Assembly (NCBI RefSeq): GCF_004336745.1
Contig: NZ_SJXD01000028.1
Coordinates: forward strand, 186,001 to 250,000
Direction of reading: 5' to 3'
DNA from: Roseococcus sp. SYP-B2431
GTDB taxonomy: Bacteria > Pseudomonadota > Alphaproteobacteria > Acetobacterales > Acetobacteraceae
Length of the DNA stretch: 64,000 bases
In this document: positions 42,966-56,725 of the stretch, one piece after another
Layout of the letters: each line of letters opens with the position of its first letter
Position numbering within the stretch: position 1 is the first letter of the stretch
Program-made: the position numbers and the translations under genes
Notes under the pieces: model-generated
What the model saw: the letters and a program-made list of their open reading frames with translations, nothing else
Database searches by the model: none
Told to the model about the DNA's origin: nothing

Positions 42966-44111
<1,146 letters not shown>

Positions 44112-44234
44112 TCCGCCGCGCCGGATCGCGCCCTGGCCTTTGGCGGGGAAGCGATTCGCCGGTTCGGCGGCTCCTGGCCTAGGATTTCATCAACGGATCG
44201 GCCCGGTCGGCCCATCCTCACGACGGAGACCGGA

Positions 44235-46304
44235 TTGCGCGGGCGGATCGACGGCGTCTCCGAGGGCATCCTGCGCGGCTGGGCCTGGGATCCGGCCCGG
44301 CCCGGCCATCGGCTGACCCTGCGGCTGGTGGTGGATGGCGAGATGGTGGCCCCCGTCACCGCCGCATGGCCGCGCGCCGACCTCGAGCAGGCCGGCCTGG
44401 GCGACGGCCGCCACGGTCTGGAATTCGCCCTGCCCCTGCGCTTCCAGGACGGCGCGCCGCATGAGATCGCGATCGAGGCCTGGTGGCACGACAAGCCCAT
44501 CCGGCTCGACGCCGTCACGCCCCGCATCCCGCGACGGCTGCACATGCTGCGCGGGCGTCTGGAAGGCGCCCCGCGCGGTCGGCTGCGGGGCTGGGCCTGG
44601 GACCAGTCGCGCCCCGAGGCCGCCGTCGCGCTCGAGCTGTGGCACGACGGCAGGGTCGCGGCGCGCCTGCTGGCCGACCGCCACCGCCCGGAGCTGGCGC
44701 ATGGCGGCATCGGCGGCGGCGCGCATGGCTTCGAGCTCGACCTGGCCGGCGTCGCGCCGGTGGGGTCAGAGCTGGAGCTGCGCTGCGCCCCGGAATTCGG
44801 CGAGTGGTCGCTCGGACGCCTCGTGGTGCCCGCCGGCGGCGAGGAGGGCCCCCGGCCGCGACAGCACTTCCTCGAAGAGGCGCGCCAGGCGGAGGCCCGG
44901 CAGGAGCCCGCCGCCGCAGCGCGCATCCTGGAGCATGGGCTTCGCCTCCACCCGGGCGATTTCGACCTGCTGGTGCTGCGCGCGCGGGCCCTGCTCGACC
45001 TCCAGCAATGGGAAGCCGCGGAGGAGTCCGCCCGGCAGGCCCGGGCCGTCCGGCCCGGCCATGCCGCGCCGACCATGCTGCTGGCCCGCCTCGCCGGGGC
45101 ACAGGGGCGCCACGCCGAGGCGGCCGCGCATTGGTCCGGCATCACGCCCCGGGACAGCGCCTGGCGCGAGCGGCTGCAGCGCCGGCCACGCCATCTCGCC
45201 GCGCTCGGCCGAACGGCCGAGGTCCTGGCGGAGCTGGCGCTGGCCGCCCGGCACAGGCCGGAGGACCCCGCGCTGGCCCGGAGCCTGGCCGATACAGCCG
45301 AGGCGCTGGGCGCCACCGGCTCCGCCCGCGCCCATCTGCGCCGCCTCGCCGAGCTCGCGCCCGGCAGCCGGGCCGCGCCGGCACGGCTCGCCCCGCTGGA
45401 GCCGCGGCCGCCCGGCCATGGGCCGGCGGGGCTCGCCTCACCCCTGGTGAACCCGACTCTGCGGGCCTGGGACGGGCCCGTCTCGGGCGCGGTGGAGGGC
45501 GAGGCCCGGGTCGCGGCGGGGCTCGTGCTGCGGGGCCGGGGGCTGCGCTTCGCGGCCGCGGCGCCGCGCGCGCTCCGGCCGGGCGAGCTGCCGGCCTATG
45601 GGCTGCGGCTGGCGGTGGCGGAGGGCGCGGCCGAGGCGGAATTCGCGCTGGAGCCGGTGTCCACCGGCCTGCGCATGGCGCTCGCGCTGGAGGGGTCCCA
45701 GGGGCAAGGGCCCGGCATGGCGGCGACGCTGCTCCTGCGGCGCGCGGGCCAGCCGGACCGCCTGCTTCTGGAGACCCGGACCGAGCCGCGCCCGCGGCTG
45801 CTCCGCTTCGACCTGCCGCCCGTGCGAGAGGGCGCGTTGGTGCTCCGGCTGGAGGGGCCAGGCACGGTGGTGGTGCATCCGCCACGGCCGCTCGCGCGGC
45901 TCGACGGGGCTCAGGCAGTGCCGGGAGACTTCGAGACGCCGGGACTGGCCGCGCGGCTCGCCCTGCCGCCGCACCGCGCGCCGCGCCGCGACATGCCGGC
46001 GGAAATCGGGGTGCCCTTCACGACGATCGAGATCGCGCCGGCCGCGCCGGCCGGAACCTTGCGCGCGGTGCTGGACGGCACCTCGGCCCCCTTTGAATGC
46101 GTCCTCGCGGCGGGGGCATCCCCGGTGGCCGATCCGCGCCTCCGCATCCTGGCGGAGGGCGCGCCGCCGGTCCGGGGCTGGGTCGCGCAGCTGGAGGCCC
46201 CGCCGGAGGGCGGGGCCGGCTGGCTCTCGGCGCTGCACCGCGCGGCGGCGGTGGCCGGAGCCGCGAGCGCGCCGGGCGTCAGGCTGGAGTGGCGGGCGCC
46301 CTGA
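44235..46304 (+). CDS. Large protein with two GWAWD modules and TPR-like repeats
   Basis: The 689-residue product opens with TTG at 44235 (GGAG 6 bases upstream). Two N-terminal modules of about 100 residues each contain LRGWAWD (residues 13-19 and 116-122) and an LVVDG/ELWHDG strand, ending in GRHGLEFALP and AHGFELDL. A TPR-like helical stretch follows (about 215-390; AARILEHGLRLHPGDFDLLVLRARALLDLQQWEAAEESARQA), then a beta-rich C-terminal half without recognised motifs. There is no signal or membrane segment. I know no function; the shared module with the adjacent glycosyltransferases suggests a scaffold or glycan-assembly factor. The 3' end overlaps the convergent gene by 26 bases. Confidence 0.75.
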   Translation: MRGRIDGVSEGILRGWAWDPARPGHRLTLRLVVDGEMVAPVTAAWPRADLEQAGLGDGRHGLEFALPLRFQDGAPHEIAIEAWWHDKPIRLDAVTPRIPRRLHMLRGRLEGAPRGRLRGWAWDQSRPEAAVALELWHDGRVAARLLADRHRPELAHGGIGGGAHGFELDLAGVAPVGSELELRCAPEFGEWSLGRLVVPAGGEEGPRPRQHFLEEARQAEARQEPAAAARILEHGLRLHPGDFDLLVLRARALLDLQQWEAAEESARQARAVRPGHAAPTMLLARLAGAQGRHAEAAAHWSGITPRDSAWRERLQRRPRHLAALGRTAEVLAELALAARHRPEDPALARSLADTAEALGATGSARAHLRRLAELAPGSRAAPARLAPLEPRPPGHGPAGLASPLVNPTLRAWDGPVSGAVEGEARVAAGLVLRGRGLRFAAAAPRALRPGELPAYGLRLAVAEGAAEAEFALEPVSTGLRMALALEGSQGQGPGMAATLLLRRAGQPDRLLLETRTEPRPRLLRFDLPPVREGALVLRLEGPGTVVVHPPRPLARLDGAQAVPGDFETPGLAARLALPPHRAPRRDMPAEIGVPFTTIEIAPAAPAGTLRAVLDGTSAPFECVLAAGASPVADPRLRILAEGAPPVRGWVAQLEAPPEGGAGWLSALHRAAAVAGAASAPGVRLEWRAP

Positions 46305-49300
46305 CCTCCCAGCCCGGTGCGGGATCGATCTCGCCGGCGCGGGCCTGCGGATGGAGGGTGCAGCGGCGGTCGCGCAGCCGCGGCAGCACGCGCGCCAGGG
46401 CCGGGCTCGCCAGGCTGTCGCAGAGGATCGCGACGCCCGCGACATCGCCGGCGAGCGCCGCCGCGAGGCGGGATTCCGGGACGGGGCGGTAGATCACCGC
46501 CGAATCCGCGTCGTTCGCGCAGCCCTCGGCGCGCGGGCTCTCGCGCAGGTCCAGCCGCAGCCAGACCTCGACCGGCGCGGGCCGCGCGAAGGCGAGGCGG
46601 CGGGCGCGCAGCTCGCGATAGAGGCGGTCGTAATCGGCGGCCATGGCCGCGGTGTCGCGGGCCGCGCCCTCGCCCTGCTGCCAGGCGCGCAGCTGGATGC
46701 GCCGGCGGCTGAGGCCGGCGGGATCGCGGGCGATCGCGCGCAGGCGGTCCAGCACGGCCTGGGGCGAGGATTCCGGCGGCACCAGCCAGCCGCCGCCCTG
46801 CGCGCGCAGCCGCTCGCCCACGGCGCCGAGATCGATCCCCAGCACGGGCAGGCCCGCGGCCCAGAGCTCGGTCAGCGTGTGCGAATGCGTCTCCGGCCAG
46901 CGCGAGAGCACGGCGCCGATGTCGGGCGCGATGTCCCGCGCGCGCGCAGAAAACTCGTCCCGCGGATAGGGGCCATGGATCGTCAGGCCGGGCATGGAGA
47001 ACGTGCCCTGCGCCGTCCCCAGGACGTGGAACTCGACGGTCCGGCCCTCGTCCAGCAGGGCCATGGCGCGGATCCACCCGAGGCCCTTGGCCGTGTCGAG
47101 ATGGCCGGGCAGGAGCACGCGCAAGGGACGGCCCGCGAGGCTCGCCGTGCGCGCGGCGGAGAGCCGGGGAAAGTCGCGGCCATGCGGGATCACGCGGAAG
47201 TCGGCCTGCGCCAGCCCGGGAAAGGTCTCGACGTGGCGCGCACGGACATGGGGCGCGGTCGTGACCAGCGCGTCGGCGGCGGCGAGGGCCGCGCCGGTCT
47301 GCTCGCGCCAGCGCCGTGCCCAGGCGCCGCGCAGATGCGGGACCTCGGCCTCGGGCCAGAGCTCGGCCCGGCATTGCCCGGGCGCGTCGGTGCAGCAGCC
47401 GGGACAGGGCTCGCCCGTGGCGTCGAGCAGCTTGAGGCTGGCGCAGAGCATGTAGAAATCATGCAGCGAGGCCACGACGGGAATGCCCAGCGCCCGAGCC
47501 ACCATCGGCAGGCCGAGCCCGTGCCAGGCAAAATGGCGCAGATGCACGAGCTCGATCGCGTGGCGGGTGAGCAGGCCCGCGAAGGCGCGGTCGTATTCGG
47601 CGCTGGCATGCTCGGCGAGGCGGATGGGCCGGTTGAGCGCCACCTGCTCCACCTCCCGCAGCGCGCCGGATTCGAGGCGCTTCAGCGTCAGCACGGTGCC
47701 GTCGCTGCCGAGCAGGAAGGGCTCGTAGCGGTCCTCCAGCGCGCGCATCAGGTCGAGGTTGGTGAGCGGCGTGCCGCCCGCCTCCAGGGCGAGGACGAAG
47801 AGGATTCGCGGGCGCGGTGCCGGCCGCGCGAAGGCGCCGCCCATACGCCAGCGCGCGGCCGCCATCTGCGGGTCGGCGAGGAAGGCGTGGACCAGCGCGG
47901 GATATTCCGGGAAGCGGGCATCCACCGCCTCGCGGCCGGCCCGCAGGAGCGCCTCGCGCTCCGCGCCGAAGCTGGCCGCCTCGCGGTGGCGCACGAAGCT
48001 GCGGTCGTCCACCACATGGCGCAGCCCGGCGCGCAGCGCGCGCATCGACCACTCGTTCTCCTCGCCATAGCCGCGCGGGAAGGATTCGGCGTCGAGCAGC
48101 CCGGCGCGGTCGATGGCATCGCGGCGGAGGTAGAGGCAGAAGCCATGGCCCGTGGGCGCCTCGGGCGGGGTGGCGAGCGAGGATTGCGCGCAGAGGCGGG
48201 ACAGTTCCGTCGTGCTCATCCCCTCCGGCACGGGCGGGGTGGAGAAGGCGCCGGCCCGGTCGGAGAAGGGCGTGGCCGAGGCGGTCTCCGGCGTCGACCA
48301 GGCCGCCGCCATCAGGTTTTCGATCCAGCGCGCCGGCACCTCGGTGTCGGAATTCAGCAGGATCACGTCGTCGCGACCGGCGGCGGCGATGCCTCGGTTA
48401 CAGCTCGCGGTGAAGCCCAGGTTCCGGTCGTTGCGGAGAATTTCGATGCCCGCGCGGCCTTGCAGCTTGCCGAGAATCTCTGCGACGGCCGGGTCGGTGC
48501 TGGCGTCGTCCACCAGGATGAGCCGCGCGGGGGCCGCGCTATGCGCGATCACGCTGGCCAGGCAGTTCCGCAGCGCCTCCGCGGCATTGTGGATCGGGAT
48601 CACCACCGCCACGCGCGGCCGGCCGCGCGAGAGGGCGCGAAAGGCGCCGGCACCGAAGCCGGGCGCCAGCGGCAGATGCCGCAGGGTGACGGGAGAGCCG
48701 GGCAGCGCCCCCGCCTCCCCGGCGATGCGCGCGGAAACGGCGAGGGTCGGGCGGCCCGTGGGCGAATGGGGCAGCGGCAGTGCGAAGCGGCCGCCATCGG
48801 CGCGCAGCGGCGGAAACTCGCGCCCGTCCAGCGCGAGGATCACGGCCGGCGGGCGTTCCGGCTCCAGCTCGGCCCAGCCGCGCAGTGCCCCGCCTTCCCA
48901 GACGTCGAGCCCGCCGCGAGCGCGGGCGGGCAGCACCTCCTCCCGGGCCGCGATCTCCTGCCCGCGCGCGACCAGCGACCAGCGCCGGACCAGGCCGTCG
49001 CCGAAGGGCTGGATCCCGTCCAGCATCGGGCCGAGCACCGCGGCGGGCAGGAAGAAGCCCAGCCGCTCGCCCCGGAATCGCGCGCCGAAGAGGAGGTCCG
49101 TGCGCGTCGCGTTCAGCGGGATGTCGCAGACCTTCGCGCCATCGGCGTGCAGCGCCAGGTCGGGCCCGCCGAGCCATTGCGCGGGGTCGTAGGCCCAGCC
49201 CGAGAGCTGCGCCTGCGAGAACCACTCGATCGCGCCCATCGGCGTGAAGGCGGCCCAGCGCGCCCCGTCCGCGGTGGCGAGCGGCAGGCCGTCGGCGCAG

Positions 49301-49539
49301 AGCGTGACCTGGAATCCGGGCGCGTCGCCGGGCCAGGGAATGTCCTCGCGGAAGGCGCGGGCCTCCCCGCCGCCGGGAAAGGCGAAGGCATGCGCGATGC
49401 GGTGGGTGAGGCCGTCCAGCTCGAGCGTCAGCACGGGCCAGTCGCGGCCCGGCGGCACTGCGACCGAGCCGCCGATGCACAGGAAGCCGGGGCCGTGCTG
49501 GAGCGAGTCCAGCCCGCCGATGGGCGCGTCAGCCGCCAT
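46279..49539 (-). CDS. Multidomain glycosyltransferase: GWA modules, GT2, then GT4-like
   Basis: The 1086-residue protein has GWA modules near the N-terminus (LSGWAYD at 112-118 and LRGWAE at 219-223), a GT2 domain (about 309-560; VAVVIPIHN, LVDDAST, LLNSDTEVP with Asp398, GYGEENEW acceptor box), and a C-terminal GT-B/GT4-like domain (about 585-980; HGRDFPRLS, VLLPGHLDTAKGLGW, SHTLTELWAAGLPVLGIDLG). A Cys cluster CPGCCTDAPGQC lies in the second transferase. Two transferases in one chain suggest sequential sugar addition. The start overlaps the upstream GT2 gene by 11 bases, and its end overlaps the convergent gene. Confidence 0.85.
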   Translation of the reverse strand: MAADAPIGGLDSLQHGPGFLCIGGSVAVPPGRDWPVLTLELDGLTHRIAHAFAFPGGGEARAFREDIPWPGDAPGFQVTLCADGLPLATADGARWAAFTPMGAIEWFSQAQLSGWAYDPAQWLGGPDLALHADGAKVCDIPLNATRTDLLFGARFRGERLGFFLPAAVLGPMLDGIQPFGDGLVRRWSLVARGQEIAAREEVLPARARGGLDVWEGGALRGWAELEPERPPAVILALDGREFPPLRADGGRFALPLPHSPTGRPTLAVSARIAGEAGALPGSPVTLRHLPLAPGFGAGAFRALSRGRPRVAVVIPIHNAAEALRNCLASVIAHSAAPARLILVDDASTDPAVAEILGKLQGRAGIEILRNDRNLGFTASCNRGIAAAGRDDVILLNSDTEVPARWIENLMAAAWSTPETASATPFSDRAGAFSTPPVPEGMSTTELSRLCAQSSLATPPEAPTGHGFCLYLRRDAIDRAGLLDAESFPRGYGEENEWSMRALRAGLRHVVDDRSFVRHREAASFGAEREALLRAGREAVDARFPEYPALVHAFLADPQMAAARWRMGGAFARPAPRPRILFVLALEAGGTPLTNLDLMRALEDRYEPFLLGSDGTVLTLKRLESGALREVEQVALNRPIRLAEHASAEYDRAFAGLLTRHAIELVHLRHFAWHGLGLPMVARALGIPVVASLHDFYMLCASLKLLDATGEPCPGCCTDAPGQCRAELWPEAEVPHLRGAWARRWREQTGAALAAADALVTTAPHVRARHVETFPGLAQADFRVIPHGRDFPRLSAARTASLAGRPLRVLLPGHLDTAKGLGWIRAMALLDEGRTVEFHVLGTAQGTFSMPGLTIHGPYPRDEFSARARDIAPDIGAVLSRWPETHSHTLTELWAAGLPVLGIDLGAVGERLRAQGGGWLVPPESSPQAVLDRLRAIARDPAGLSRRRIQLRAWQQGEGAARDTAAMAADYDRLYRELRARRLAFARPAPVEVWLRLDLRESPRAEGCANDADSAVIYRPVPESRLAAALAGDVAGVAILCDSLASPALARVLPRLRDRRCTLHPQARAGEIDPAPGWEVRAPATPA

Positions 49540-51568
49540 GCCAGCGGCGATTGTAGGTCCAGGCGTTGAGCAGCGTCAGGTTCCAGCGCCCCTGCCCTGC
49601 GGCGAAGCGGCCCTGCGACTGGCGCTCCAGATGCGTGACCTCGGCGGTGTCCGCCATCACGCGGCGCAGCCCGTCGCGCGCGAGCTTCGCGCAGAGGTCG
49701 GCATCCTCGAAATCGCCGATGACATAGGCCGGATCGAAGCCGCCGTAGCGCCGCGCGACCTCGCGCCGCATCGCCAGGCAGGCGCCGGTGAGCGCCGGCA
49801 CGTCGCGCGGCGCCGGCGCGGCGGCCGGCGGGCGCAGGCCCTTGCCGGGATGCTCGGGAAAGACCCAGCCCGCCCGGTCCGCGGCGGCTTCGGGGACCAT
49901 GCCGCCATGCTGGAGGCTGCCATCGGGATAGAGCAGCCGCGCGCCAGCCGCGCCGATCGACGGATCGTCGAGCGCGGCGACGAGGCGGTCGAGCCAGCCC
50001 GGCGATTCCGGGAAGGCGTCGGCATTGAGGAAGACGACCACGCGGCCCCGCGCGCGCTCCAGGCCGAGGTTGCTCGCCGGGCCGAAGCCGCGCTGCTCCG
50101 CCGGGAGAAGGAGGCGCGCCGCAAGGCCGAAGCGGCGCGACAGGGCGGCGACCAGCGGGACCGCCGCCTCGCGCCGCGGCGGATCGTCCAGGACCAGGAT
50201 CACCTCGTCGCCCGGCAGGTCGGAGAGCAGCGCCGCCTGCGCGGTCAGCAGGTCGAGCCTTCCGTGCAGGGGGATCACGAGGCTGGCGCGGGGCGCGTCC
50301 GGCATGGCCCCGAAGACGCGCTCCTCCACCGCCATCGGCTGCGCCAGCCGCGCGCGGTTCAGCGCGACCAGCGGCGCGCCGAGCACCGCGTCGAAGGCCT
50401 GGTCCAGCCGCTCCGCCGGGATCGCGCCGATCCCCTCCAGCAGGCCGCGCAGCGCCGGCAGGCCCCAGGAGGGCGCGGGCAGCGACAGCGTGCCCGTCTC
50501 GCCCGAATGCAGCTCCACCTCCAGCCAGGCCTCGCCCGTCCAGGCCGAGGCCGGCGCGCGCGCGGTGAAGCCCTGGCCGTCGTTCGCCGGCACGTCGATC
50601 CAGGCGAGGTCGAAGCGCGCGTCGCCGTGGCGCAGGCGCAGGGCGGCGACGGCCTGGTGCGGGTCGGAGAAGCTGCCCTGCAGCAGCGTGCCCGCCTCGG
50701 TCGGCACCACGCGCGCCACCTGGATCCGCACCGGACTGGAGAGCCAGCCGGCGGTGCTGCGGCCGGTGAAGGCGCGCTGCAGCAGGCGCTCCAGCTCCGG
50801 CTTTCCCGCGCCGCGCGCCTCGGCCAGATGGCGGCGCAGGCGCGCCAGCAGATCCTCCGGCAGCGGGCGCGGCGCGATCCGCGACCCGGCCGGCGGCGAG
50901 AAGCGCAGCGGCGGCAGCCCCGGCGGCAGGATCTCCACGCCGGTGGCCTCCATCTCCGACTCGGGCACGGCGGCGATCAGACCGAGCTGGCCCTCCCCGG
51001 CGTCGAAGGCCAGCAAGGACACAGGGGAGGCGCCCGAGCCGCCCAGCCGCAGCGGCACCGGCGCGGCGGTCAGCGCGGCCTCCGGCGTCGCGTCGGCGAG
51101 GCGCAGGACCAGCAGACGATGGCCCGTCCCGGGCAGCGGCCCGCAGGCATCGAACGTGCCGTCGCCTTCCGGGACCGGAGGGGCGGCGGGCAGGGCCGGA
51201 ACCCCGCTTTCGCCCAGCGCGATGTCCGGCCCCAGCCGCAGCACCACCGAGGCCGGCACGGGCCGCGCCGGCCGGAAGGGCGCCGGGGCGCCGCCGGGCG
51301 GCGTGACCAGGATGCCGTCCGCCGCGAAGGCCACGCCGACGCTCGGCGCCTGCGCCTCGGTCGCGGAGAGCGGAAACAGCAGCTCCTCGCCCCATTGCCC
51401 GTCGAGGAAGTCGTTCACGATGAGATGCGGCTCGCCCTGCACGCCGCGGATGACGACGTGCAGGCGGATGTCCTCGCCCTGGTGGTAATTGGCGCTTTGC
51501 GACTGCGCCATGGCGCGCGGCGCGAAGGACAGGCTCTGCGCGAAGGGGGGCCGGAGGAAGGCGCTCAT
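49529..51568 (-). CDS. GT2 glycosyltransferase with a long beta-rich N-terminal region
   Basis: The 679-residue protein has a C-terminal GT2 domain (about 420-679): ASLVIPLHGRLDLL, ILVLDDPP, GFGPASNLGLERARG, VVFLNADAFPE and GDFEDADLCAKLAR, the last being the usual acceptor/base box. Residues 1 to about 400 are beta-rich and include a module distantly like the GWA modules (LQGSFSDPHQAVAAL at about 290). It overlaps both neighbours (4 and 11 bases), giving a three-gene minus-strand unit with the GT at 51565-52605 and the double transferase. Confidence 0.85.
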   Translation of the reverse strand: MSAFLRPPFAQSLSFAPRAMAQSQSANYHQGEDIRLHVVIRGVQGEPHLIVNDFLDGQWGEELLFPLSATEAQAPSVGVAFAADGILVTPPGGAPAPFRPARPVPASVVLRLGPDIALGESGVPALPAAPPVPEGDGTFDACGPLPGTGHRLLVLRLADATPEAALTAAPVPLRLGGSGASPVSLLAFDAGEGQLGLIAAVPESEMEATGVEILPPGLPPLRFSPPAGSRIAPRPLPEDLLARLRRHLAEARGAGKPELERLLQRAFTGRSTAGWLSSPVRIQVARVVPTEAGTLLQGSFSDPHQAVAALRLRHGDARFDLAWIDVPANDGQGFTARAPASAWTGEAWLEVELHSGETGTLSLPAPSWGLPALRGLLEGIGAIPAERLDQAFDAVLGAPLVALNRARLAQPMAVEERVFGAMPDAPRASLVIPLHGRLDLLTAQAALLSDLPGDEVILVLDDPPRREAAVPLVAALSRRFGLAARLLLPAEQRGFGPASNLGLERARGRVVVFLNADAFPESPGWLDRLVAALDDPSIGAAGARLLYPDGSLQHGGMVPEAAADRAGWVFPEHPGKGLRPPAAAPAPRDVPALTGACLAMRREVARRYGGFDPAYVIGDFEDADLCAKLARDGLRRVMADTAEVTHLERQSQGRFAAGQGRWNLTLLNAWTYNRRWHGG

Positions 51569-52605
51569 GCCGGCAGCCCGCGATACAGCGACAGCAGCGC
51601 CGCGGCGGCCCCGGCCTCGCTCGCCGGCGGGGCCAGGGCGGCCTGGAGCGCCGCCAGCTCCCCGGGCGCTTCCAGCAGGCGCATCAGCGACTCGGCCAGG
51701 GCGGCGCCGGAGCCGATGCGGAGGGTCGGGCGCCGATGCGCGGCCGCCATCGCGACGACCGGCTCCGGATCGCGCGACGGGAGCAGCACGAGATGCGCCG
51801 CCGCCATGCCTGCGGAGGAGAGGACCAGCGGCGAGCCGGGCTGCCCGGCCGCATGCTCCAGCATCGCGTCCGGGCCGCCGTGCACCTCGATCCGCAGCCT
51901 GCGGCCCTCAGGCGGCGGCAGGCTGGCCAGCAGCCCGGCCGCCGCAGCGAGAGAAGCCGCATCCCCCGGGCCCGGGAAGGCGGCCGCGACCAGGAAGTGC
52001 CGGGACGGCGGCGGCTCGCCCGCCTCCGCCTCCGGGGGCAGCGGCGGGGAGACCACGAGCCGCGCGGGATCGAGCCCGAAACCCTTGCAGGCGGCGCGCA
52101 GCCCCTCGTTCGGCAGCAGGACCGTGGCCTCGCGCAGGAAGCGGCGGAGCAGCGCGGCGGCCAAGAAACGCGGCACCTTCTCTTCCTCCTCCTCCGGAGC
52201 GCCGGAGACGAGCCCGATCCGCTGCGCGAGCCCGGCATCCAGCGTGACCACGATCCGCGCCCGGGGGCATTCGCGCCGAAGGAGCGCGAAGAGCTCCACC
52301 CCGAAGGGCGCGAGGTCGTGCAGGTGCACCAGCTCCGGCCTCAGTCGGCGCAGCAGGTCGCCCAGCCGGTCCAGCAGATGGAGGTCGGGCTGGGTGAGGT
52401 CCATCGACCCGAAGCCCGCCTCGGCCTCCACCAGGAACTCGGCCGGGCCGAAGGGCTGGAAGATCCGCACGCCCGGCGGCGGCCGCGAGGGGCCGGCGCC
52501 GGCCAGGAACCAGGCCTCCGCCACGCGCGACAGCAGGCGGAAGGCCCGGAACGCCGCGGCATCGGCGGGGCTTCCGCCCAGCGCCGGATGGCGGGCGGCC
52601 ACCAC
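51565..52605 (-). CDS. GT4-like glycosyltransferase (start uncertain)
   Basis: The frame of at least 346 residues opens with GTG at 52605, but in-frame upstream sequence (SRPRILVV, to about 52640) extends the first strand of the GT-B fold and has no ATG, GTG or TTG. Features are RILVVAARHPALGG-type N-terminus, LVHLHDLAPFGVELF, and a donor-domain half with VVSPPLPPEAEAGE; the E-x7-E motif is not clear, so the donor half is degenerate. Probably a glycan transferase of the same unit; the catalytic state is doubtful. It diverges from the plus-strand GT at 52774. Confidence 0.6.
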   Translation of the reverse strand: MVAARHPALGGSPADAAAFRAFRLLSRVAEAWFLAGAGPSRPPPGVRIFQPFGPAEFLVEAEAGFGSMDLTQPDLHLLDRLGDLLRRLRPELVHLHDLAPFGVELFALLRRECPRARIVVTLDAGLAQRIGLVSGAPEEEEEKVPRFLAAALLRRFLREATVLLPNEGLRAACKGFGLDPARLVVSPPLPPEAEAGEPPPSRHFLVAAAFPGPGDAASLAAAAGLLASLPPPEGRRLRIEVHGGPDAMLEHAAGQPGSPLVLSSAGMAAAHLVLLPSRDPEPVVAMAAAHRRPTLRIGSGAALAESLMRLLEAPGELAALQAALAPPASEAGAAAALLSLYRGLPA

Positions 52606-52773
52606 CAGGATGCGGGGCCGGGAAAGCGCGTCGAGGTCCAGCGAAGGGGCCTTTCGATCGGCGGAACAGGGCTCTACCTCTATCGCCCGTTCCGCCGGCG
52701 CTCAAGCTTGGCTTCCTCGGCCTCCTGCCGGATGCTAAGCCGAATGCAGGCCGTGGAAGGTATTGGCGACCGC

Positions 52774-54618
52774 ATGGATGGCAGCACCGAGACGGGACAG
52801 GAGGCCGGCGACGGCGCGTTGCGCCTTCATCCCGACCCGCCGTCGCTGCGCGGCTGGGCCCGTCCGGCACCGCTTTCGCCCGATCCCTCCTTCCCTCCAG
52901 AGATCGGCCTCGACATCGAGGGACTCGGCACGCGCGTGCTGACGGCGCGGGCCGACGGCGCCGGCGGCTTCGTCATCGACTGGCCCTTGCCGGCGACGCT
53001 GCGCGACGGCGTCCCGCGCGAGGCCCGCGCCTTCCACCTCGTCACCGGGCGGGAACTGGCCGGCTCGCCGCTGCGCCTGGAGGCCGGCTCCGCCGGGGAA
53101 GCCCCCGCGCCGCCCCGGCCCGCCGCGGCGGCGGGCTTCCCGCCGCTCTCCCGCTGGCCGGGCGGCCTGGCCGGCGTGCTGCCGGCCGCGATGGCGGAGC
53201 TGGCCGAGGGGCTGCAGGGCGGCGCCCAGCCCCCGGCCGCCACGCAGCGCTTCGAGATGGTGCCGGAATCGCAATCCTCCGGCCCGGGCGTGCGGCTGCT
53301 GCTGGACGCGGCCTCCCCGCGGGTCTCGCTGCTCTTTCGGCTGGACGAGGTGCCGGCCGGCCGGCTGGTGGTGACCGCCTGGCTGCCGGAGGCCACCGAG
53401 CCGAACATGCATGCGGTGCTGGAGCTCTCCATCCAGGCGCGGGAGGGGCCGGGCTTCCGGCCGCTGCGCGTGCTGCGCCGGGCGCGCGCCTTCCGGCGCC
53501 CGGTGGAGATCCCGGTCGAGCTCCAGCCCTCGGAGACGGGAGCCGGCGCCTGGCTCGCCGTCGAGGCGCTCGGGGCCAAGGGCCTCGCCGCGCTGGCGCC
53601 GCGCGCCGCCCCGCAGATGCACGCCTCGCCGCGCTTCGAGGATGGGCGGCTAGAGGCGACCTTCGGGCGGGCGGAGACCTTCGCCCGCATCCACGGGGCG
53701 GCGCCCCGGCCAGGGCCAGCGCCCGATCCAGCGCGCCGCCTGCCCGCCGGCGCGCATCCGTTCACGCAGGTCGTGCTGCCCGTGCACAATGGCAGCGACG
53801 AGGTGCGCGCCTGCCTGCGCGCCCTCAGCGCCGCCGCGACGGGGCCCATGCAGGTCGTCGTCGTGGACGATGGCAGCCGCGACCTCACCGCCGAAATGCT
53901 GCGCGAGGAGGCGGCGCGCGACCCGCGCATCGTCCTGCACCGGCGCGAGATGAACCGCGGCTACACCAAGTCGATCAACGAGGGCGTGGCGCTCACCGGC
54001 GCCGACTGGGTCGTGGTGCTGAACTCCGACACGGTGGTGCCCCGGGGCTGGCTGGACCGGTTGCACGCCGCCGCGCGGGCACGGCCGGGCGCCGGCATGG
54101 TGGGCCCCATCTCGAACGCCGCGAGCTGGCAGAGCCTGCCCGCCGTGAAGCGGCCGGACGGCAGCTGGTCCACGAACGACGCCATCCGGCCGGAGCACCT
54201 GGACCGGGTGCAGGCGCTGCTCGATGCCGCGACCGAGCGGGCCTATCCCGACTTCCCGCTGCTCAACGGCTTCTGCACGCTGATCTCGCGGGAGGTCTTC
54301 GATCGCGTGGGCCTCTACGACGAGGAGGCCTTCCCCATGGGCTACGGCGAGGAGACCGACCTCTGTCTGCGGGCGCGCGCCGCCGGCTTCCGCCTCGTCG
54401 TCGCGGACGACTGCTTCGTCTTCCACCACAAGAGCGTCTCCTTCGGCGCCGGGCGCACCGAGCTCACGCGCGCCGGCGGACTGGAAATGACCAACAAGCA
54501 TCCCGGAGTCGTGATCCCCGTGCTGGAGCGGATGATGCAGGAGAACGCCGTGCTGGGCCGCCTTCGCGGCCGGCTCGCCGGAATCGCGGAGCTCCTGGCC
54601 GAGGGGGAGTCCGCGTGA
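52774..54618 (+). CDS. GT2 glycosyltransferase with N-terminal GWA module
   Basis: The product is about 614 residues from ATG 52774 (GGAAGG 13 bases upstream); ATG 52744 is an alternative. Near the N-terminus is LRGWARP with a GFVIDWPLP strand, again the GWA type module. Residues about 330-600 form a GT2 domain: [55 protein letters not shown] and the HHKSVSFG tail, which marks the rhamnosyltransferase/WbbL-like subtype. The 3' end overlaps the next transferase (GTGA). The plus-strand set 52774-56725 reads GT2, GT4, gmd. Confidence 0.85.
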
Positions 54619-55682
54619 CGCGGCTCGCCTTCGTGCTGCCGGTGCGCGGCGGCGCCGGCAGCGCGCATTCCGTCGTGCAGGAGGTGTCGGCGATGCGCGA
54701 CCTCGGCGTCGAGGCGCGCATCCTGGTGAACGCGGCCAATGCCGAAGGCTTCCGCGAGAACCACGCGCGCTTCGACTGGGTGCTGGACGGCGGCGTCGGC
54801 GTCTTCGACGGACCGCAGGAGCTGGGCCGTCTGATCGCGGGCGAGGGTGCGGTGGTCGCGACCACCGCATCCTCCGTCCACTGCATCGCCAGGGCCGCGG
54901 AGACCCTTCAGGGCCCGGCCTTCCGCACCGGCTACTGCGTGCAGGACTACGAGCCGCTCTTCCATCCGGAGGGCAGCATGGAGCAGGACAAGGCGCTCGC
55001 GAGCTTCTCCCTCCTGCGCGGCTGCACCTACATCGCCAGGTCGAACTGGCTGGCCGAGATCGTGCATTCGGCCCATGGCCATGCCGCCGCGCTGGTGGTG
55101 CCGAGCATCGACCACGGGCTCTTTGGCCCGGCCCGCCGCGCGGAAGGCGCCGCGCTGCGCGTCGTCGCCATGGTGCGGCCGGGCACGCCGCGCCGCGCGC
55201 CGCTTCGCACGCTGCGCCTGCTGGGCCGCCTCGCTGCCGGCGCGTTCGGGCCGGTGGAGGCCATCGGCTTCGGCGCCTCCGGCGAGGAACTGGCCGCGCT
55301 CGGCATGGAGCCGCCGGCCGGCGTGACGCTGACCGGCCGGCTCAGCCAGGCCGGCGTCGCCGGGCTGCTGCGCGAGGCCGACGCCTTCCTCGACCTCTCG
55401 GACTTTCAGGCCTTCGGCCGCACCGCGGCCGAGGCCATGGCCTGCGGCTGCCTGCCCCTGGCGCCGCGGCTGGGCGGCACGGTGGATTTCCTGGAGGACG
55501 GAGTGAGCGGCTTCCTGGCCGACACCAGCGACGAGGCTTCGGTCGACGCCGCGCTGCGGCGGCTGCTCTCGCTTTCGGAGAGCGAGCGGCGGAGGATGCG
55601 CCTCGCGGCGCTGGATGCGGTGGCGGATTTCACGCCCGTGCGCGCCGCCATCTCGGAGCTGCGGGCATTGGGCCTGGGCTGA
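54615..55682 (+). CDS. GT4 glycosyltransferase, WsaF-like
   Basis: The 355-residue protein starts at GTG 54615 (4-base overlap). It has [21 protein letters not shown], then the [14 protein letters not shown] segment typical of WsaF-type rhamnosyltransferases and a donor motif [21 protein letters not shown]. Such enzymes add rhamnose or related deoxy sugars to S-layer or O-antigen glycans, which fits the adjacent gmd. Donor identity (GDP- or dTDP-linked) is inference. Confidence 0.85.
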
Positions 55683-55708: not shown

Positions 55709-56725
55709 ATGGCGCGACCGACAGCCCTGATCACCGGCGTGGCCGGCCAGGACGGTTCCTACCTGGCCGAGCTGCTGCTGGAGAAGGGCTATCTCGTGCA
55801 CGGCATGCACCGCCGGGCCTCGGGGACCGGCCGCATCGACCATCTGCGCGGCGCGGAAGGCTTCCGCCTGCACCACGGCGACCTGACCGACGGTTCGGCG
55901 ATGATCCGCCTGCTGCAGGCGATCGCGCCCGACGAGATCTACAATCTGGCCGCGCAGAGCGACGTGGCGGTGAGCTTCGAGGTGCCGGAATACACGGCCG
56001 ACAGCGACGCGATGGGCGTGGTGCGGCTGCTGGAGGCCATGCGCATCCTGAAGCTCGACGCCACGCGGTTCTACCAGGCCTCGACCAGCGAGCTCTACGG
56101 CAAGGCGCGGGCCGTGCCGCAGAGCGAAGCCACGCCCTTCCATCCGCGCTCGCCCTATGCGGTGGCCAAGCTCTACGCCTTCTGGATCACGGTGAACTAC
56201 CGCGAAGCCTATGGCATGCACGCCTCCAACGGCATCCTGTTCAACCATGAGAGCCCGCGGCGCGGCCTCGGCTTCGTGACGCGCAAGATCACCCATGCCG
56301 TGGCGTCGATCCATCGCGGGAAGCTGGACTGCCTGCGCCTCGGCAATCTCTCGGCCAAGCGCGACTGGGGCCATGCGCGCGACTACGTCGAGGGGATGTG
56401 GCGCATGCTCCAGCAGGAGCGGCCCGACGACTACGTGCTCGCCACCGGCACCAACCACACGGTCCGCGAGTTCACCGAGCTCGCCTTCCGCGAGACCGGC
56501 GTGACGCTGGGCTGGGAGGGCGAAGGCGAGGAGGAGATCGGCCGCTGCGCGGCGACCGGCCGCGTGCTGGTGCGCGTGGACCCCGCCTTCTTCCGTCCGG
56601 CCGAGGTCGAGCTGCTGATCGGCGATGCCTCCCGCGCTCACGAGCGGCTGGGCTGGGCGCCGCGCATCGGCCTGGCCGAGATGGTCGCCGAGATGGTGAG
56701 GGCCGACCTGGACGCGCCGGGGTAG
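55709..56725 (+). CDS. gmd: GDP-mannose 4,6-dehydratase, copy 2
   Basis: The 338-residue copy has [20 protein letters not shown], catalytic [13 protein letters not shown] and [12 protein letters not shown]. It differs from copy 1 in its N-terminal third but shares a 91-base identical stretch (56359-56449 against 43721-43811) and another block with about 97% identity. It follows the WsaF-like transferase by 26 bases. The two Gmds likely feed the same GDP-6-deoxyhexose pool. No fucose synthase or GDP-rhamnose reductase gene is in the window. Confidence 0.93.

Follow-up and report, generated by a model that had tools for sequence, protein, structure and literature searches.

The carbohydrate-binding module (CBM) of the Wzt subunit, which takes part in cytoplasmic O-antigen assembly, is immunoglobulin-like (Ig-like). 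Published work on the Klebsiella O7 enzyme (the ORF6 terminator) describes a methyltransferase, a coiled coil, two glycosyltransferase (GT) modules and a predicted immunoglobulin-like fold (PMC11231755), and another publication reports that the plant GT31 galactosyltransferases GALT1-6 carry a galectin-like domain (PMC8121149). Here, we consider a domain that we call the GWA module, found in a glycan gene cluster of Roseococcus sp. SYP-B2431 (genome of 4.7 Mb). The cluster lies in a 64-kb window on contig NZ_SJXD01000028.1, the window being the whole stretch of DNA analysed, and the four neighbouring proteins in question are called A (44235-46304, plus strand), B (46279-49539, minus strand), C (49529-51568, minus strand) and E (52774-54618, plus strand).

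We conclude that the module, of about 75-95 residues, forms a domain in its own right, with a beta-sandwich fold as predicted by modelling, and that it has no name in Pfam or NCBIfam. Regarding its role, we lean slightly toward the view that it serves as a non-catalytic accessory tether, attached to the cytoplasmic enzymes and scaffolds by which surface glycans are built or decorated. The AlphaFold2 model of the first copy in A (44226-44507) is confident, with a predicted local distance difference test (pLDDT) score of 93.8 and a predicted template modelling (pTM) score of 0.82, and it shows a small beta-sandwich of seven strands and one short helix, in agreement with an earlier note on this DNA, which had described a beta-rich module shared by the four proteins. 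G-W, R-x-D-L, G-x-G and F are nearly invariant, and no catalytic signature is evident among the conserved residues.

Copies of the module are homologous across the proteins, with a strength of evidence that differs from one to the next. A profile made from the two copies in A matched 21 loci in named genomes (loci carry numbers with the prefix L) and was enlarged to 31 and then to 120 copies. When the 31-row profile was run against the Roseococcus genome, with 150 of 309 first-look candidates scored, it matched both copies in A (E 2.9e-29 and 1.6e-28) and two places in B (49048-49245, 1.9e-14; 48781-48924, 0.04), with one further place, outside the cluster, at chance level (1.3). The 120-row profile recovers the same four places; by profile search, the module within this genome is thus confined to the glycan cluster. 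Neither C nor E was matched directly in this search; the earlier note had called their copies more remote. Homologues bridge part of this distance. By BLAST, residues 24-136 of E match the module region of a protein from another genus (38-40% identity, E about 4e-5), and the homologue of E in L060 has a module copy (E 2e-16) at the place aligned to E. Similarly, for the second copy in B, which precedes the GT2 domain, the homologue in L008 carries a module at the corresponding position (E 2.8e-18), and for residues 1-96 of B there is a weak module match in the homologue in L074 (E 0.014).

Profile comparison with HHalign used a query of 105 copies from which the window and all loci serving as homologues had been removed. 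As single sequences, the copies in A scored 99.7 and 99.5% and those in B 94.3 and 92.8%; with homologues added, the values were 92.6% for B 90-200, 97.4% for B 200-308, 97.9% for E 1-130, 44% for C 265-385 (score 26.8) and 1.1% for B 1-96 (score 14.4). Control pieces (n=108) peaked at a score of 20.9, these being single sequences and hence an inexact yardstick for profiles. On the single-sequence scale, E scored 25.1, C 11.2 and B 1-96 10.1, so that the module is undetectable by HHalign in the C segment and in B 1-96 taken alone. Iterated hidden Markov model searches of 6,386 open reading frames (ORFs), seeded with C 272-372, E 8-105, B 1-96, B 95-190 and B 203-300, each with its homologues, all converged on the module family, with 180-188 hits in the last round. 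Of 18 control seeds taken from elsewhere in B, C and E, 17 never reached the family; the exception was C 1-100, and we ascribe this, as the likely cause, to three homologues that carry N-terminal module copies. In C itself, the GW motif is lost (GSFSDP), and the homologues read GW-x-x-DP followed by R-x-D...GF. Thus, both copies in A and both in B are well supported (one B copy being weak alone), the copy in E is supported through its homologues, and that in C, a remote copy, is the weakest of the four proteins; the case for a copy in C, and still more for one in B 1-96, comes from homologues and not from the sequence of the segment itself. With this grading, the claim that all four proteins carry the module stands.

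The order of the cluster is gmd, A (TPR), B (GT2-GT4), C (GT2), a GT4-like protein, E (GT2), a GT4 protein and gmd, and its features are as follows.

42972-44111: first gmd gene, flanking the cluster.
44235-44525, plus strand: first module copy of A, residues 1-97 (E 2.9e-29; HHalign 99.7%).
44541-44834, plus strand: second module copy of A, residues 103-200 (E 1.6e-28; HHalign 99.5%).
44880-45368, plus strand: TPR region of A (Pfam TPR_19 6.8e-8, TPR_14 3.2e-5).
49261-49518, minus strand: possible, very remote extra module of B, residues 8-93 (iterated search; HHalign negative).
48970-49245, minus strand: module of B, residues 99-190 (E 1.9e-14; HHalign 92.6% with homologues).
48664-48924, minus strand: module of B immediately preceding the GT2 domain, residues 206-292 (E 0.04 alone; HHalign 97.4% with homologues).
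48109-48606, minus strand: GT2 domain of B (Pfam PF00535 1.8e-22).
46702-47778, minus strand: GT4 region of B, residues 588-946 (PF13439 1.7e-10; PF00534 1.1e-4, under the cut-off).
51248-51538, minus strand: galectin-like domain of C, residues 11-107 (profile matches to solved galectins).
50459-50731, minus strand: remote module of C, residues 280-370 (via homologues; undetectable in C alone).
49583-50284, minus strand: GT2 domain of C (Pfam PF13641 7.2e-13, PF00535 6.8e-11).
51565-52605, minus strand: GT4-like protein between C and E, module not found (Pfam PF13579 4.6e-8).
52807-53085, plus strand: remote module of E, residues 12-104 (copy in L060 at the aligned place; HHalign 97.9% with homologues).
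53770-54471, plus strand: GT2 domain of E (Pfam PF00535 8.6e-22).
54615-55682, plus strand: GT4 protein after E, module not found (Pfam PF00534 1.4e-13).
55709-56725: second gmd gene, flanking the cluster.

This layout bears out several further points of the earlier note, namely that the cluster lies between two gmd genes, that A combines two copies with TPRs and no transferase, that B carries modules ahead of GT2 and GT4 domains, and that the module recurs with different partners, which are GT2, GT4 and TPR in the window and further families in relatives. The start codon of A (TTG) is uncertain, its frame being open from 44112. The TPR region is joined to GT4 domains in two relatives of A (L078:2456-5935, minus strand; L070:6628-9675, plus strand), suggesting that A belongs to a modular family, as a member without a transferase. 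Proteins of the A and B types are again close together in L078 and in L008 of Chelatococcus. By eye, the start of the GT4 protein after E resembles that of the ORF following the E homologue in L071. This pair (L071:9771-12903, plus strand) has third-position guanine-cytosine contents of 0.54 and 0.51, compared with 0.62-0.87 in neighbouring called ORFs, which suggests possible horizontal transfer of the pair.

That the module is unnamed, as the earlier note had supposed, was borne out by the libraries. In Pfam, 31 copies touched eight unrelated families with one member each (best 0.014); in NCBIfam, 120 copies touched 21 unrelated families with at most three members each (best 0.0069), one copy touching an Ig-like model at 0.15. 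We therefore rejected a named domain, as neither library gave a convincing match. Foldseek returned weak matches to the model, many of them Ig or FN3 (best E 0.067); the highest TM values among the matches listed were TMq 0.47 and TMt 0.49, with none at TM >= 0.5. A relative in the PDB by sequence was also rejected, as the matches were short (best 0.0029 for the whole chain, 0.043 for its stretch) and were taken as convergent; they were chiefly to fluorinase and mitoribosomal uS5m, around R-x-DL...GxGxHGF. For instance, residues about 208-240 of the fluorinases 5lmz and 1rqp read R-x-DL-x-x-AGIG-x-G-x-H, resembling the helix region of the module (E 0.013 to 0.6), a likeness that is probably convergent. 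In the open-licence literature, judged by titles and abstract openings, nothing was found on the module or on bacterial galectin-transferases.

The search in Acetobacteraceae that the earlier note had proposed found the module in 198 of 249 genomes at E 1e-3, and in a sample of the phylum it was found in 37 of 398 genomes, five of the 37 being from Acetobacteraceae; both counts are lower bounds, with at most 20 first-look candidates scored per family genome and at most 12 per genome of the phylum sample. Constant company with GT2 or GT4, which the same note had raised, did not hold: by local models, a GT2 or GT4 domain is present in 68 of 113 module ORFs and absent from 45, and Hint_2 lies upstream of the module in 44. 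These models were seeded from Pfam-labelled stretches, and many of the ORFs run off the ends of their loci; they overlook some domains (L078:2456-5935 has GT4 by Pfam) and may overcall others (L012:4384-7410 shows only Hint_2 by Pfam). The count of 113 leaves out own-genome loci, the 10-base L077, L028-L030 and L061 (contigs of named loci), and L059, L060 and L065-L069 (for which the longer L070-L076 were used); L104 is a duplicate of L018. Pfam itself, run on 56 host proteins of relatives (61 module ORFs minus three duplicates and two window proteins), found Hint_2 in 28, GT4 in 28, GT2 in six, TPR in three and an AIDA stalk in two, together with single hits to methyltransferase, sulfotransferase, radical SAM, subtilase and others; further fusions above the Pfam cut-offs join the module to a sulfotransferase in L134 and a methyltransferase in L145. 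Since the partners also include Hint_2, TPR, sulfotransferase, methyltransferase and small membrane-anchored proteins, the module is not tied to GT2 or GT4. Nor is Hint_2 an obligate partner here, as the Roseococcus genome has none at E 0.001. Single-ORF fusions of Hint_2, the module and GT4, in that order, occur in L009, L013, L019, L020, L083 and others, with sizes of up to 3,155 residues (L013) and of 4,022 in L083, where the ORF runs off the locus end; in L022, L079 and L087, these parts are split over two adjacent ORFs.

Some carriers of the module appear to be anchored in the membrane by their C-terminus. In ten of 33 module ORFs of under 400 amino acids, the peak of hydrophobicity (19-residue window, mean >= 1.6) lies no more than 45 residues from the C-terminus, usually, by eye in those inspected, after a long, charged, helix-like stretch; L123 and L125 in this set belong to one genus. 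In three of four family loci (L103, L108 and L109; the exception is L018/L104), the tail-anchored gene has a GT2 with a C-type module no more than about 2.6 kb away, and in four of six other loci (L120, L121, L123 and L125; not L122 or L124), an ORF with a C-type module adjoins it, these four ORFs ending at the locus edge before any GT2 is visible. Within the class, the tail-anchored protein and the C-type module ORF seem to form a conserved gene pair. In tail-anchored proteins, the N-terminal part stays on the cytoplasmic side, and the partner enzymes of the module use cytoplasmic donors. By hydrophobicity windows, none of A, B, C and E has a hydrophobic stretch at its N-terminus, and one window in B is moderately hydrophobic (1.73, at residue 1025). 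Given the C-terminal anchors, the cytoplasmic-donor enzymes and the lack of such a stretch in the four proteins, the module probably works in the cytoplasm.

Protein C carries a second domain of interest, as its residues 11-107 are, by profile comparison, homologous to solved galectins, which are lectins of the animal type. Against the PDB, C 1-130 alone gave three matches, all galectins (best 0.033), and a profile of C with two homologues gave a best value of 2.3e-14, all 60 matches listed of 126 being galectins. The homologues in L150 (24.3 bits) and L152 (24.8) exceed the PF00337 gathering cut-off of 22.1; C itself is under the cut-off, with no Pfam family at E 1, and the Roseococcus genome has no PF00337 match. 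A single-sequence model of the domain is poor (pLDDT 61, pTM 0.61), and Foldseek places galectins at ranks 1-7 with E >= 0.36. We take the sugar-contacting residues of galectins to be H, N, R, W and E, with HxNPR as the usual motif; in an alignment of nine galectin-like domains, H, N, W and E are retained by at least 80% of the domains, C included; C reads H-x-x-x-R in place of HxNPR. In four loci picked for galectin, eight ORFs carry the domain by profile, and seven of these also have the module in the same ORF; the remaining one, in L163, carries TPRs (by Pfam on the same gene in L152). Of 6,520 ORFs from the remaining loci and the window together, three have the domain (L150, L152 and C). 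The relatives of the domain are in L150/L164 and L152/L163, each pair being the same gene, and in L162 and L165, with fusions to the module in L162, L164 and L165. The galectin-like domain is rare, yet it keeps company with the module where present.

If the module is a tether, it would hold its host protein near a shared partner, which could be a growing lipid-linked glycan or another subunit. Protein A, with two modules and TPRs and no transferase, would then be a scaffold, B, C and E would be catalytic subunits extending a glycan fed by the gmd genes, and C would gain a further hold on sugar from its galectin-like domain. The partner enzymes, tail-anchored versions and galectin-like domains that occur with the module lend indirect support to such a glycan-related cytoplasmic role. 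Several observations weigh against it. Half of the hosts scanned (28 of 56) carry Hint_2, a domain that does not belong to glycan enzymes, and L082, L088, L126, L128 and others have modules without a recognised partner or anchor. Two module ORFs occur in only seven of 40 loci (overlapping in L102), and PF00337 is found in only four of 299 family genomes, the Roseococcus genome not being one of the four. The conserved residues of the module look like fold residues and less like a binding site, and, judged by sequence conservation, no conserved aromatic set of the type seen in glycan binders is evident apart from W, F and some positions that are conserved in part.

Within the tether reading, binding to a glycan and docking to a protein are about equally likely. 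Each copy might bind the nascent glycan and so bring the transferases to one acceptor, a possibility that we hold tentatively. It is favoured by partner domains that act on glycans, by the galectin-like domains, which share proteins with the module in three relatives' clusters and stand at the start of C, and by the Klebsiella O7 enzyme, whose predicted immunoglobulin-like fold is taken in the published work as indicative of a CBM (PMC11231755). Against this, the module has no likeness to any named CBM in Pfam or NCBIfam, a conserved aromatic platform is not evident, and the frequency of Hint_2 hosts counts here as well. Alternatively, and with somewhat more doubt, copies may bind to one another or to a protein that they share, and A or its tail-anchored relatives would in this way gather transferases at the membrane. 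The non-catalytic carriers, namely the TPR protein A and the tail-anchored proteins, favour docking, several of them being encoded near module-bearing GTs, and the copies in tandem fit it too; however, no conserved interface was seen, and 32 of 40 loci have a single module ORF (L104, as a duplicate of L018, being entered as empty). It is doubtful, though conceivable, that Acetobacteraceae and other Proteobacteria have a dedicated set of cytoplasmic reader domains, namely the module and bacterial galectins, which hold one growing glycan for successive enzymes and which, as part of the same idea, are combined freely with transferases, with sulfo- and methyltransferases, with TPR scaffolds and with proteins anchored in the membrane.

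Outside the tether reading, the module could be a passive structural spacer that folds solely against the adjacent domain. Conservation mostly in G, W, R, D, L and F would suit a spacer, but the sequence persists beside unrelated partners, and the module also exists in small and membrane-anchored forms, so we regard a spacer as unlikely. Chance resemblance of Ala/Gly/Arg-rich sequence, which high-GC coding and the C and B 1-96 segments undetectable as single sequences might suggest, has a negligible probability given E-values that reach 1e-37 in relatives and is ruled out for A, B and E by the HHalign controls, the control seeds and the fold model with its pLDDT of 93.8.

Returning to the tether reading and to what it would mean, about four in five of the sampled Acetobacteraceae genomes encode a domain that has no name in the libraries searched and that transferases, scaffolds and membrane-anchored proteins have in common. 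Should it act as a tether or a glycan reader, this would help to explain how transferases that lack membrane parts come to be ordered on a single acceptor, and the domain could serve as a marker for finding glycan-assembly proteins. Compared with known systems, the module resembles FN3 and Ig-like domains in its seven-strand, beta-rich model and in the many weak Foldseek matches to them, and it differs in that the best E is 0.067 and the highest listed TM 0.49 and in its short helix at R-x-D-L. Like the CBM of Wzt in O-antigen assembly and the candidate CBM of Klebsiella O7 ORF6 (PMC11231755), it is a non-catalytic domain on what are probably cytoplasmic glycan-assembly proteins; unlike them, it has no Pfam sequence match and no listed Foldseek match at TM >= 0.5, and its binding is only putative. 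The parallel with galectins is separate from the GWA module and concerns the N-terminus of C. This protein differs from the plant GALT1-6 in being bacterial, in its GT2-type domain by Pfam as opposed to GT31 and in missing the Pfam galectin cut-off. Nevertheless, C begins galectin-like and ends with GT2, so that a bacterial galectin-like domain on a transferase parallels the lectin-transferase fusions described for plants (PMC8121149), a likeness that is directly testable.

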